Part shown: positions 36,491 through 57,886 of the stretch, piece after piece
Numbering within the stretch: position 1 is the first letter of the stretch
Layout of the letters: every line of letters begins with the position of its first letter
Source: Stanieria sp. NIES-3757
Lineage (GTDB): Bacteria > Cyanobacteriota > Cyanobacteriia > Cyanobacteriales > Xenococcaceae
Direction of reading: 5' to 3'
Length of the DNA: 64,000 bases
Assembly (NCBI GenBank): GCA_002355455.1
Contig: AP017375.1
Coordinates: forward strand, 248,001-312,000
Position numbers and translations under genes: made by a program
Notes under the pieces: model-generated
Database searches by the model: none
Seen by the model: the letters and a program-made list of their open reading frames with translations, nothing else
What the model was told of the DNA's origin: nothing

Positions 36491-36789
36491 ATTCCAGTTT
36501 AGAGCTAAGAAAAGAAATAAGTCTGGGAGTAGCCATAATTTTGCTCCTAGATGAATTTATAAATTTTCTTTGGTAGTTTGCTCATAATTTACTCAATTTC
36601 TTCTATCTTCTTTTATGTCTATAACTGCAATTAAAATTGCGTTTTAACGCAAAAAATCTGCTATACATCAGCAAGAAAAAATAGAGCAAATTTAGATATA
36701 ATTTTGGCAACTTATTTAGTTTCAAACATTAAAGTTAAAAGATTTTTAGCTCGCGTTACCTTACCTAACTTCATTCAAATGTAGACAAA

Positions 36790-38733
36790 ATGATCCTCCG
36801 CAAAGCATGGCAACGAACTGCCCTCTGGCTTGGTATTGGCTGGAGCCTTTTGTGGAGCTTGCTTCTATCTGAACTTCCTCTCATTCAACAAATAGACCTC
36901 TCTCAACACGATCGCTCTGTTCGCCTAAATTCTTCCTACACTCCACCCCAAGAAATTGTCTTAGTTACGATTACCGACGCAGACTTAAAAGCCTGGGGAT
37001 TAGCCAATGAACCAATTATTTATAGCAAACTAGTCGATCGCCTTTTCGATGCAGGTGCAGCAGTAACGGTATTAAATCTACTGCCCAATTGGGTACAAAC
37101 ATCAGATCATCCTAATAATCCGATCAAAACATTAGTTCAACGTCATAGCGATCGCGTTGTTCTTGTCCTTCCCACTTCCAGCGCAACCCAACCTTACCCT
37201 ACTGAATGGCGCAGTTACGAATATGTCCTGCCTTCTACTAACCAAGATAAGCCTTTATTTCCACTGCGATCGATTCTAGGCTTTACCGAATATGAACCAG
37301 AAGCCAAACATCCTCAGAGTATCAGCAGTACTGCTCGTCAAGCTAGTTTATCTGGGCAATTTACCCTCACTCAAAAATTAGACCGCAGCCAAACTCTGGA
37401 TTCAGCAGCTTTACTAGCTCTCAAGAAATTTCAACCTCAGCAAAAACTCAAAATATCTCACACTCCAATTCAAATTCATTTTTGGGGAGCAACGGAAACT
37501 TTCCCAACCATTGAAGGGCGATCTCTTTTGAATAACAATTCATTACTATCCCAAGTCCGCAACAAAATCGTTCTAGTGGGATTTTCCGATACAACTAACC
37601 CCGATGCTTTTGCTATTCGCTCTCCTTTTGGCGAACTGATGCCGGCAGTGGAATTACAAGCTAACTTACTGGCGAGTTTGCTAACAAAATCTTTCTATCT
37701 AATAGTTCCAACGTGGCTGCAAAATATCCTAATTGTATTTGGTGGAATTTTAATTAGTAAATGGGTTGTCTTTGGCAAGCTTAACGAACGTGCTAGAAAG
37801 AGATACTGGTATTGGCTCTATCCCATTTTAGGATTGGGTGGGTTTGGTTTTGTAAGCTTCGTGCTGTTTGGACGGGGTTGGATTTTACCAATTACACTTC
37901 CCCTATTCGTCTGGACTGCGACTGGAGTATCTGTATTTATTTCTTTACTGTTAGGTATCCAAAAGGATCTAATAGATCGACAACAGTGTGAAATAGATCG
38001 CCTAAATTCCATCGAACAAACCGCAGCCATTTCTCAAGCGAAAAAAATGCTTCATCGCCTTGCTGCCAATATTCACGAAGGTCCTCTTCAAGAACTCAAA
38101 CTGATCATGGATCGACTGGAAATACTTCAATTTAATGGCGCAGCATCCAACCTTGACCCTATTTTAGATGGACTTGAAAGTTTGGGACATCATCTGCGTC
38201 AACAGCTTAACCAAACTCGTGCCATTACCTTAGAAATTACACCAGAATTAAAAGCAGGGCTAGACGTAGGAATTAAAACTAAGCTACAACAATTGGTTAA
38301 CTCTGGAGAACTCACCCTGCAAGTTATTCAACAATTGGAACATCTAGAAGAAGACGAATTCAACAGCCTTTGGTTAGAAGCTCGCGAGGATATTTACCAT
38401 TTTTTTTGTGAAGCAATTCATAACGTCATTTGCCATGCTCAACCTCCTCACGGAACAGCCACTCAGGTATGGGTAAGTCTACACCAACAAGATACTCGCT
38501 GTATCCTAACCATTGAGAACGATGGCATACAAGTAGAACAATCCCAATTCAAGCGATCTCGCCCTTGGCGAGGCGCGCTGCGATCGCATCTGCCCAGGAC
38601 GAGTAGTGGTTATGGTATGAAATTAATGGAAATGGTTGCCTCGCAGTTGCCCGACGGAACTTTTAAACCCGTTGCTTTACCAGAGGGAGGAATGCGAATA
38701 CAACTTTCTTGGACTCAATCGTTTAATCTCTAA
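36790..38733 (+). CDS. CHASE2-domain sensor histidine kinase
   Basis: 647 residues. An N-terminal membrane helix, then an extracytoplasmic CHASE2 sensor (QEIVLVTITDADLKAWG, GRSLLNNNSLLSQVRNKIVL, SPFGELMPAVELQANLLASL), three further membrane helices (about 300-390), a NarL-type phosphoacceptor helix (LAANIHEGPLQELKL, His429) and an HATPase end (CEAIHNVICHAQ, IENDG, SSGYGMKLMEM). It should sense an extracellular signal and phosphorylate the regulator at 40286. Residues about 588-600 (RSRPWRGALRSHL) are encoded by a HIP1-rich palindrome inserted in frame in the ATP lid. The IS following it has separated it from its regulator. Confidence 0.9.
   Translation: MILRKAWQRTALWLGIGWSLLWSLLLSELPLIQQIDLSQHDRSVRLNSSYTPPQEIVLVTITDADLKAWGLANEPIIYSKLVDRLFDAGAAVTVLNLLPNWVQTSDHPNNPIKTLVQRHSDRVVLVLPTSSATQPYPTEWRSYEYVLPSTNQDKPLFPLRSILGFTEYEPEAKHPQSISSTARQASLSGQFTLTQKLDRSQTLDSAALLALKKFQPQQKLKISHTPIQIHFWGATETFPTIEGRSLLNNNSLLSQVRNKIVLVGFSDTTNPDAFAIRSPFGELMPAVELQANLLASLLTKSFYLIVPTWLQNILIVFGGILISKWVVFGKLNERARKRYWYWLYPILGLGGFGFVSFVLFGRGWILPITLPLFVWTATGVSVFISLLLGIQKDLIDRQQCEIDRLNSIEQTAAISQAKKMLHRLAANIHEGPLQELKLIMDRLEILQFNGAASNLDPILDGLESLGHHLRQQLNQTRAITLEITPELKAGLDVGIKTKLQQLVNSGELTLQVIQQLEHLEEDEFNSLWLEAREDIYHFFCEAIHNVICHAQPPHGTATQVWVSLHQQDTRCILTIENDGIQVEQSQFKRSRPWRGALRSHLPRTSSGYGMKLMEMVASQLPDGTFKPVALPEGGMRIQLSWTQSFNL
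38553..38587. repeat. HIP1-bounded palindromic element inside the kinase gene
   Basis: GCGATCTCGCCCTTGGCGAG leads into GCGCGCTGCGATCGC, starting with GCGATCTCG and ending with the HIP1 octamer; parts of the block form a hairpin. It has the same start and end as the elements at 44247-44281 and 57839-57886. Here it is in frame and translated. Confidence 0.55.
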
Positions 38734-38774
38734 TATTTTTTCCCTCAATTACAAAATTAGGATAATAAAACTTA

Positions 38775-40221
38775 TCCCTCTTTTATGACTATAGGGTGAT
38801 AAAATAATTGAAAATAAAAACCCAATGAAAAATGGTGACACCACGAAGAGAAGCATCATCAACAGTGAGTTTTATCGATCACTATTGTCAAGCCTACCAA
38901 GAGCTATTCTCTGATGTGAGAAATTATGAAGCATTCAAATTAATACATTTAGGAATGCTATCAGAAATACCTAGAAAGTCGCTACCAAAGATAGCAAGAG
39001 CGGTAGGATTAAAAGATAGTCAAGGATTAAATTATTTTCTATCTGAAGCTCATTGGAATGTAGAAAAAATACGAGAAATTAGATTATGGTTGACTAAATT
39101 ATTGATTGGAGAAAGAAAAATAACTCTTTGTATTGATGAAACAGGAGATGTCAAGAAAGGAAAAACAACTGATTATGTAGCCAGACAGTATATTGGTAAT
39201 TTAGGAAAGACAAAAAATGGAATTGTGTCGGTTAATGCTTATGCAGTAGTAGAGGGAATAACATACCCTTTACTTTTTAAAATATTTAAGCCGAACAAAT
39301 GCCTCAAAGCAGAAGATACATATAAAACCAAACCACAACTAGCTGTAGAAATAATCAAGGAATTACAAAAATGGAACTTTAACATCAAGTTAATATTAGC
39401 TGATAGTTTGTATGGAGAAAGTGGAGATGTAATTACAGTTTTGGAGCAATTGAATCTGGAGTATATTGTGGCAATTCGCTCTAACCATAAGGTTTGGATG
39501 TTCGGCGATGAGAAAAAAAAATATAATCGATGGCAAGCTTATCAACAAAAATTATCTCGAAAGAAGAGCGAAACTAGATACATTAGAGAAATTATTTTTG
39601 GCACAAGAAAACATATTCGTTTCTATCAAATAAGTAAACAAGACGACAAAAACCCTGAACCAAAAGATACTTGGTTTATTATGACGAATAAAAAAGGCAA
39701 AATTGCCACCACAATTGCTTCAGAATATAGTTTGAGAAACTGGATTGAATATGCGTTTAAACAAGTCAAAAATGAACTTGGTTGGGCAGATTTTCGAGTT
39801 ACAGATTATCACGGTATAGAACGCTGGTGGGAATTAATTATGAGTACTTATTTTTTAGTAAGTCTTCAAGCTAATTATTTTCAATTAGAGACGATTGTTC
39901 CCGATGCCAATTCTCAAGTCTCTACTCTTAAATCAGTTTCTTCTTTTCCTTTCTCTAATCATCAGGCGTGGGATTCTGGTGCTGGTTGGAAAAGTTCTTT
40001 AAATAACTTGCGCTTAATTATTCAACCATTAATCTTTTTCTCTCTTATTCAACCTTGGCTATCCGTATTTCCTAATCAACATCTTCAACTTGGTTTTTCT
40101 AAGTTAATCAACATTATGAATCGCTTTCGTGGTTCTCCTTTTCCTCAAAGTCAATTTTTAGAGTATTCGTTCTCTGTTGCTTGCTAATTCAATATTTTTC
40201 CCCATAGTCATAAAAGAGGGA
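38775..40221 (+). mobile_element. IS4/IS701-like insertion sequence
   Basis: 1447 nt. The left end TCCCTCTTTTATGACTAT is repeated inverted at the right end (ATAGTCATAAAAGAGGGA, 40204-40221). TTA flanks both sides (38772-38774, 40222-40224), so the target duplication is probably 3 bp; a 4-bp duplication is not matched. It encodes one transposase. It lies exactly between a histidine kinase and its likely response regulator, 42 nt after the kinase stop. Confidence 0.85.
38832..40187 (+). CDS. IS4-superfamily transposase (IS701-like)
   Basis: 451 residues. DDE-type transposase: ITLCIDETGDVKKGKTTDYV (first Asp), KLILADSLYGESGDVI (second Asp), and a Y-REK-like region with WIEYAFKQVKNELGWADF holding the Glu, followed by WWELIMSTYFLVSLQA. 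The DETGDxKKG and DSxYG motifs and the size fit the IS701 branch of the IS4 superfamily. The C-terminal 100 residues are hydrophobic and variable. It is intact, so the element could be mobile. Confidence 0.88.
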   Translation: MVTPRREASSTVSFIDHYCQAYQELFSDVRNYEAFKLIHLGMLSEIPRKSLPKIARAVGLKDSQGLNYFLSEAHWNVEKIREIRLWLTKLLIGERKITLCIDETGDVKKGKTTDYVARQYIGNLGKTKNGIVSVNAYAVVEGITYPLLFKIFKPNKCLKAEDTYKTKPQLAVEIIKELQKWNFNIKLILADSLYGESGDVITVLEQLNLEYIVAIRSNHKVWMFGDEKKKYNRWQAYQQKLSRKKSETRYIREIIFGTRKHIRFYQISKQDDKNPEPKDTWFIMTNKKGKIATTIASEYSLRNWIEYAFKQVKNELGWADFRVTDYHGIERWWELIMSTYFLVSLQANYFQLETIVPDANSQVSTLKSVSSFPFSNHQAWDSGAGWKSSLNNLRLIIQPLIFFSLIQPWLSVFPNQHLQLGFSKLINIMNRFRGSPFPQSQFLEYSFSVAC

Positions 40222-40285
40222 TTATATATCGAAGTAGCTTTGGGAACCAGAAACTATAAACTAGTTCTAGTGAATTTTGGGGATT

Positions 40286-40939
40286 ATGAAGTTTATATTT
40301 TTGATCCTTGAAGATCATCCTGAAGTTGCTCAAAATAACTGTTTATTTCTGCAAAAGTTCAATCCAGAAGCAATTTGTCAAATTGTTGATACTCACATCG
40401 CAGCTTTAGAAAGAATTAACTTAGAAACTCCCGATCTTGTTATCGTCGATTTACTGTTTGGTACATTAACAGGTGAACAATCTGCCCAAGCCAGTTTAAA
40501 TTTTTTACAGCAGGTTTTCCAAGATTATCCAAAGCTGAATATTTTAATCTATACCAGTGAGTATAGCTATTTAAAATCTCTGACTACAGCGATCGCTCAT
40601 CATCAAGGAGGATTTGTCGTCGTTAGTAAGCTAGAACGACGGAGAGCTTTTCTAGAAGGTGTCAAACACGCCTTAGATGGCAAACTAGAAATTCCCAGAG
40701 AACTGCGTTATGACATCGAGCTAGACGAACGAGAATTACAAGTGTTGATCTTGTTATGTCGAGAATCCCTGACCGATAAAGCGATCGCGCAACGAATGAA
40801 TATCTCTTTAAAAACAGTCCAAAATTGTGTCCAACGTCTGAAAGCCAAACTAGGGATCGATTATTTCGACCAAGATAATACTAGCGCTCGTGTTGCCTTA
40901 TGTATGGAAGCAGTTCGCCGTAAATTGATTTTGCCTTAA
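40286..40939 (+). CDS. NarL/FixJ-type response regulator
   Basis: 217 residues from the ATG at 40286; an in-frame TTG at 40277 is less likely. A receiver domain (FIFLILEDHPEVAQN, TPDLVIVDLLFG with the phosphoacceptor Asp, FVVVSKLERRRAFL with the conserved Lys) joins a LuxR-type helix-turn-helix (LDERELQVLILLCRESLTDK, AIAQRMNISLKTVQNCVQRL). It should bind DNA as a phosphorylated dimer. The kinase upstream is its natural partner by type and strand; an IS now separates them. Only 62 nt lie between the IS flank and the start codon, so its expression may depend on the IS or on that short leader. Confidence 0.92.
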   Translation: MKFIFLILEDHPEVAQNNCLFLQKFNPEAICQIVDTHIAALERINLETPDLVIVDLLFGTLTGEQSAQASLNFLQQVFQDYPKLNILIYTSEYSYLKSLTTAIAHHQGGFVVVSKLERRRAFLEGVKHALDGKLEIPRELRYDIELDERELQVLILLCRESLTDKAIAQRMNISLKTVQNCVQRLKAKLGIDYFDQDNTSARVALCMEAVRRKLILP

Positions 40940-41075
40940 GCTTTTTGTTATTTAAATCACGCAAAATTTTTTTAAAGCAAGTTTTGAGAATTTTTTTTCT
41001 CTCTTGCTGGTTACAATTTTTTTTGTACAGATGGATTAATTTATATTTTCAGCAATCAATTAAATTCTAAAATTT

Positions 41076-44246: not shown

Positions 44247-44281
44247 GCGATCTCGGCGCAGCCTGGAGCGTGCGCGGTCGC
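44247..44281. repeat. HIP1-like palindromic element
   Basis: GCGATCTCGGCGCAG, an inner CCTGGAGCG, and GTGCGCGGTCGC form an imperfect hairpin right after the permease stop codon. Ends match the elements at 38553-38587 and 57839-57886. It might serve as a terminator, but no T run follows. Confidence 0.55.
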
Positions 44282-57838: not shown

Positions 57839-57886
57839 GCGATCTCGGCGCAGAGCGAGGAGTTCGCTCCTTGCAGTCGCGATCGC
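57839..57886. repeat. HIP1-bounded palindromic element after HPP gene
   Basis: Starts GCGATCTCGGCGCAGAGCG and ends GTCGCGATCGC. Inside, AGCGAGGAG-TT-CGCTCCTT forms a short hairpin, and the flanking TCGCGATC pairs with GTCGCGATCG. It shares termini with 38553-38587 and 44247-44281. Confidence 0.6.

Follow-up and report, generated by a model that had tools for sequence, protein, structure and literature searches.

A HIP1-bounded two-hairpin repeat in frame within a Stanieria histidine kinase gene is a probable copy of a very small SDR5-type mobile element

What is a palindrome bounded by HIP1 sequence doing inside the reading frame of a sensor histidine kinase? The question is raised by a 35-nt element in a 64,000-nt stretch of Stanieria sp. 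NIES-3757 (contig AP017375.1, positions 248,001 to 312,000), which was analysed as a whole and is called the window here. Most probably, this 35-nt element belongs to a family of tiny, non-coding, SDR5-like mobile repeats that target HIP1, its 25-nt two-hairpin core being inserted at the centre of the octamer and translated where this is tolerated. The features concerned are the following, in coordinates of the window.

36790-38733, + strand: CHASE2 sensor histidine kinase, 647 aa (Pfam CHASE2 9.7e-21, HATPase_c 2.4e-5; fold matches to VraS and DesK)
38553-38587, + strand: whole element, GCGAT-hairpin 1-G-hairpin 2-ATCGC, a 27-nt insertion identified by sequence and by 55.1 bits with covariance model R1
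38553-38557, + strand: left HIP1 half GCGAT, pairing with the right half (base stem 97.7% paired in 44 distinct copies)
38558-38572, + strand: hairpin 1, CTCGCC-CTT-GGCGAG, 6 bp and a triloop, with compensatory changes at three pairs
38574-38582, + strand: hairpin 2, CGC-GCT-GCG, 3 bp and a triloop, with a compensatory GC/AU change of the middle pair in eight copies
38583-38587, + strand: right HIP1 half ATCGC, its AT duplicated relative to intact GCGATCGC; HIP1 is intact at the empty sites of two other copies
38774-40222, + strand: IS701-family insertion sequence between kinase and regulator (NCBIfam IS701 1.6e-70), with a transposase ORF at 38832-40187 and terminal inverted repeats at 38774-38796 and 40200-40222
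40277-40939, + strand: partner LuxR-type response regulator (Pfam)

The sequence of the element, GCGATCTCGCCCTTGGCGAGGCGCGCTGCGATCGC, lies in frame within the kinase ORF, and sequence, coordinates and reading frame all agree with the preliminary description of a HIP1-bounded palindrome inside a histidine kinase. It consists of a HIP1 octamer, GCGATCGC, split open by 27 nt. The HIP1 target accounts for 8 of the 35 nt, so the net gain is 27 nt or nine residues; the roughly 12 coded residues proposed earlier correspond to the 12-13 codons touched by the element, but overstate the net insertion. The 35-nt motif matches once in the window against 0.00 matches expected from window shuffles.

Further copies, which the preliminary description had suggested looking for, are abundant in the 5.46 Mb of the genome, a plasmid of which matches Stanieria cyanosphaera at 95.7% identity across 93% of a 3-kb stretch. 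A strict pattern found 24 places (control, 0), 20 of which align as one family, and the covariance model recovered at least 84 copies in this genome and 62 in the sister species. Across the order, 22 of 291 genomes match at 1e-4, 17 of them from the same family, and a BLAST search of the 35 nt against plasmids gave no match. Two intergenic elements of the window that had been grouped with the kinase copy did not turn out to be members, scoring 14.3 and 13.1 bits against 55.1. The one at 44247-44281 (ends GCGGTCGC, E 0.14) resembles the family consensus over its first ~17 nt and then diverges, and is perhaps a decayed or composite copy. The other, at 57839-57886, has a different 48-nt interior, and the lower score belongs to its part 57855-57886; it is another HIP1-ended 48-nt repeat, the right part of which, GAGCGAGGAGTTCGCTCCTTGCAGTCGCGATCGC, has three genome copies with up to three mismatches.

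Comparison of 44 distinct 35-nt copies lends support to a structure in which the HIP1 halves enclose two hairpins, each with a triloop. In the arrangement GCGAT-(6 bp, triloop)-G-(3 bp, triloop)-ATCGC, 96.9% of cells are paired, and 36 cells are double-changed as compared to 11.3 in shuffles, none of 500 shuffles reaching 36. The compensatory pairs of hairpin 1 are GC/AU, GC/CG and CG/UA. Pairing of the HIP1 halves is beyond the reach of covariation because they hardly vary. RNAalifold returned a very similar three-way form. The window copy can make each of the 14 base pairs of the three-way structure, which is its minimum-energy fold as DNA; as RNA another fold is preferred, in which GCG pairs with CGC of the core. 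Its folding energy is unremarkable (z -0.8 as RNA, -1.4 as DNA). This pairing of GCG with CGC of the core, initially assumed in R1, also pairs well, but 13 of the 44 copies are unpaired at one pair, and the two-hairpin fold is better.

Nine translated copies (L002, L003, L019, L063, L066, L106, L110, L117 and L123) were compared with their relatives. At L003, 27 nt of this genome are missing from the sister species, where HIP1 is intact (AAAAGCGATCGC). The L106 copy, a 27-nt insert in reverse orientation, corresponds to an intact HIP1, GGCGATCGC, in the sister as well as in two outgroups. For L002, L019 and L123, the difference from the sister amounts to exactly nine residues; altered HIP1-like letters stand at the site, and HIP1 is intact at L019 in two outgroups. 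Thus, five coding sites are polymorphic for presence and absence between the two Stanieria species, two of them with an intact HIP1 in the sister, which is the recent mobility expected of an SDR5-type repeat. The copies at L063 and L066 are common to both species and hence older; together with the polymorphic sites they show that insertion has been ongoing over time. The empty sites of L003 and L106 place the insertion inside the octamer, consistent with the third and fourth nucleotide, the exact break point being ambiguous by a few nucleotides because letters are shared. The L117 alignment has extra indels. L110 and the sister's counterpart of L066 are composites with extra repeat sequence. 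In thiL of this genome (L110, around 1501-1560) and in holA of the sister (L171), the element is joined to another hairpin of the GGACAGCTTCGCTGGCGCGTACGCGATCGC type, which suggests nested repeats.

Elements of the same layout occur elsewhere with a shorter insert. The 250 kb of Nostoc plasmids read contained one clear relative, GCGATGCTCCGAAGGAGCCGCTACGCGATCGC, with a 24-nt insert, and model R1 found no strong match on the Nostoc plasmid stretches (best 22 bits). Sixteen of the 291 genomes of the order contain relatives of GCGATGCTCCGAAGGAGCCGCTACGCGATCGC, which show compensatory changes in hairpin 1; Stanieria yielded none. The genus of CSU_1_1 has a further family, GCGATTGGCNNNGCCAGCGCNNAGCGCATCGC, again with a 24-nt insert and with paired changes in both hairpins; it has other copies in that genus. 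One copy of the GCGATTGGCNNNGCCAGCGCNNAGCGCATCGC family lies within the CSU_1_1 version of this kinase at the corresponding codon position, adding eight residues and leaving the reading frame intact. This coincidence of position is what an old insert would show if the Stanieria and CSU_1_1 kinases both had it from their common ancestor and it had since drifted into two sequences. Such descent is nevertheless unlikely, since the CSU_1_1 insert belongs to a different, 24-nt family that is represented elsewhere in its genus but was not found in Stanieria, the 27-nt family has no match in the CSU_1_1 genome, and, where the inserts differ, both stems show matched changes. The patchy distribution of the kinase, with no match in the sister Stanieria species, likewise fits independent acquisition. 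Independent insertion at one HIP1 is therefore the likelier origin of the two kinase inserts. The HIP1 target in the kinase gene is deduced from the flanks because the insert-free homologues lack HIP1 at the site and have TCTTCGACG-type sequence there.

The preliminary description placed the insert in the ATP lid, between the IENDG and SSGYG motifs, and alignment with homologues bears this out. Proteins from other cyanobacteria, Microseira wollei among them, share 60-78% identity in the kinase region; they are exactly nine residues shorter and lack the additional residues (FESSTMPRTRGGYG against FKRSRPWRGALRSHLPRTSSGYG), and without the 27 nt the kinase has the length of its insert-free homologues. 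In a predicted structure of modest quality (mean pLDDT 58), the insert coincides with a low-confidence loop leading from a strand (185-192) to a helix (221-234); it falls inside fragment residues 203-222, which have pLDDT <50 and are predicted to be disordered. Compared with the nearest homologue, that of CSU_1_1, the kinase region shows dN 0.06 and dS 0.73, a ratio of ~0.08 that points to purifying selection, although it also counts selection from before the insertion. The position in the loop and these values do not indicate a loss of kinase activity, and the earlier suggestion that the insertion alters or abolishes it is not upheld; the nearest homologue itself carries an eight-residue insert there. 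The nine residues added to the predicted disordered ATP-lid loop probably have little effect on the kinase, and we infer that the insert is nearly neutral.

A more pessimistic reading is that the insertion impairs or abolishes the kinase as part of a decaying operon, aided by the IS701-family element that parts the kinase from its regulator. In the relatives L055, L056, L057 and L027, a matching response-regulator ORF follows no more than ~0.7 kb after the kinase. We consider decay improbable given the intact frame and low dN/dS of the kinase, which would be compatible with a recent loss, the retained phospho-acceptor region, N-box and G2 motif, the predicted disorder of the loop and the CSU_1_1 homologue with an intact frame around its own insert. 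Kinase and LuxR-type regulator lie close together in relatives, and the IS701-family element may uncouple their expression here. In CSU_1_1, downstream of 1893 (L058), the response regulator seems to be without its N-terminal part in the frame found.

The kinase is one of many genes that carry a mobile repeat of this kind in frame. About a third of the copies with context (26/71, taken from 3-kb stretches) are held by ORFs of at least 120 aa, in all six reading ways; these ORF calls are mechanical, and translation is known here from ORFs and homology, not from proteomics or expression. The 27-nt form makes up 24 of these 26. Of the full-length copies, 1 of 25 within ORFs has a length that shifts the frame, as compared to 10 of 36 located elsewhere (p 0.02). 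ORFs hold a smaller share of the copies than of HIP1 itself (26/71 versus 30 of the 46 octamers of the window, p 0.004), suggesting that many insertions into coding sequence have been selected against. Carriers include HolA, the delta subunit of DNA polymerase III (181.8 bits, cut-off 80), and ThiL, the thiamine-phosphate kinase (298.3 bits, cut-off 184). Another histidine kinase has the element just ahead of its ATPase domain. As reading frames differ among copies, the encoded peptide is not conserved.

Palindromic elements of Rickettsia, which the preliminary description was reminded of, are ~100-150 nt long, encode 30-50 residues in frame within genes, are translated and are not known to be tied to HIP1. 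The likeness holds for the outcome, palindromic repeats in frame and translated, but neither the length nor the strict HIP1 target of the 27-nt, nine-residue Stanieria element fits, and the closest known kind is SDR5. Elhai and co-workers reportedly described SDR families of 21-27 nt and a stem structure of SDR5 with compensatory changes. The present element commonly has a net length of 27 nt, the two related families have 24 nt, and compensatory changes occur in its stems. In the passage on SDR5 from Nostoc and relatives in PMC4390886, this repeat inserts precisely between HIP1 nucleotides 3 and 4 (citing Elhai et al. 2008); like the Stanieria family it is very short, dispersed and precisely inserted into HIP1 octamers. 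The Stanieria repeats thus look like a lineage-specific, in-frame translated SDR5-type family, an assignment made from features that match the description of SDR5. The family differs in its 27-nt insert and 6-bp hairpin 1 from the one on the Nostoc plasmid and in other families of the order, probably the SDR5 group, with its 24-nt insert and 5-bp hairpin 1. For the Stanieria copies, ORFs and homology show that many genes have the repeat translated.

Other small stem-loop repeats are the REPs and REPINs, which, like the Stanieria element, are non-autonomous, and which are mobilised by RAYT transposases (PMC3116915, PMC3733652). REPs are tagged with GTAG or CGTC, and most of them lie outside genes; some within genes have been reported from other bacteria (PMC3733652), so small palindromes within genes are not new per se. 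The Stanieria genome has two genes for REP-associated tyrosine transposases of 180 aa (L207, 1923-2465; L208, 1859-2401), both without a known REP partner. Unlike REPs, the Stanieria element targets HIP1, has GTAG in just 5 of 71 copies on each strand and shows no conserved tag beside the stems in the alignment of copies. A copy lies ~2.2 kb from one RAYT gene, and the other has none within its 4.5-kb stretch. Although the RAYTs are present, neither a conserved tag nor consistent flanking copies point to them as the mover.

That the element is instead a transcribed or regulatory hairpin (a terminator, an RNA stabiliser or a methylation-linked HIP1 structure) kept for its function is very improbable, for the strong over-representation of HIP1 in the window (46 observed, 0.24 expected) and the conservation of stems by compensation are outweighed by exact presence or absence between sister species, by both orientations and all six reading ways in unrelated genes, and by the lack of any Rfam family at threshold in region 36500-41000.

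For a mobile repeat, the following course would account for the copies. The 25-nt two-hairpin core would insert at the central AT of HIP1, turning GCGATCGC into GCGAT-core-ATCGC with a net gain of 27 nt. HIP1 halves and core may then fold as a single-stranded three-way junction, probably the form recognised during copying, which would imply a single-stranded intermediate and a mobilising enzyme, for which the two RAYTs are present as candidates. Copies at tolerant places in genes would be kept and translated because the gain is nine codons and the element is often stop-free. We tentatively extend this to the possibility that HIP1 is a dedicated landing site for a class of 22-25-nt two-hairpin elements, which differ in sequence, share the three-way-junction layout closed by HIP1 halves and duplicate 2 bp (AT). 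Lineage versions with net lengths of 24 or 27 nt keep the frame, so that such a translatable mobile element might repeatedly enter the same tolerant protein loops, for example that of this kinase.

As far as we have checked, what is new is the Stanieria family and its layout in common with other families, together with the empty sites and the number of copies in frame. The repeat ranks among the smallest mobile elements and offers a clear, countable case of such an element carried in frame by protein genes; two of its carriers, holA and thiL, encode housekeeping enzymes. The purpose of HIP1, a long-standing question, is tied to a concrete event, insertion at the HIP1 centre, which can be dated between sister species. 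With their nine additional residues, the copies provide a ready test set for the tolerance of proteins to insertions of this length.
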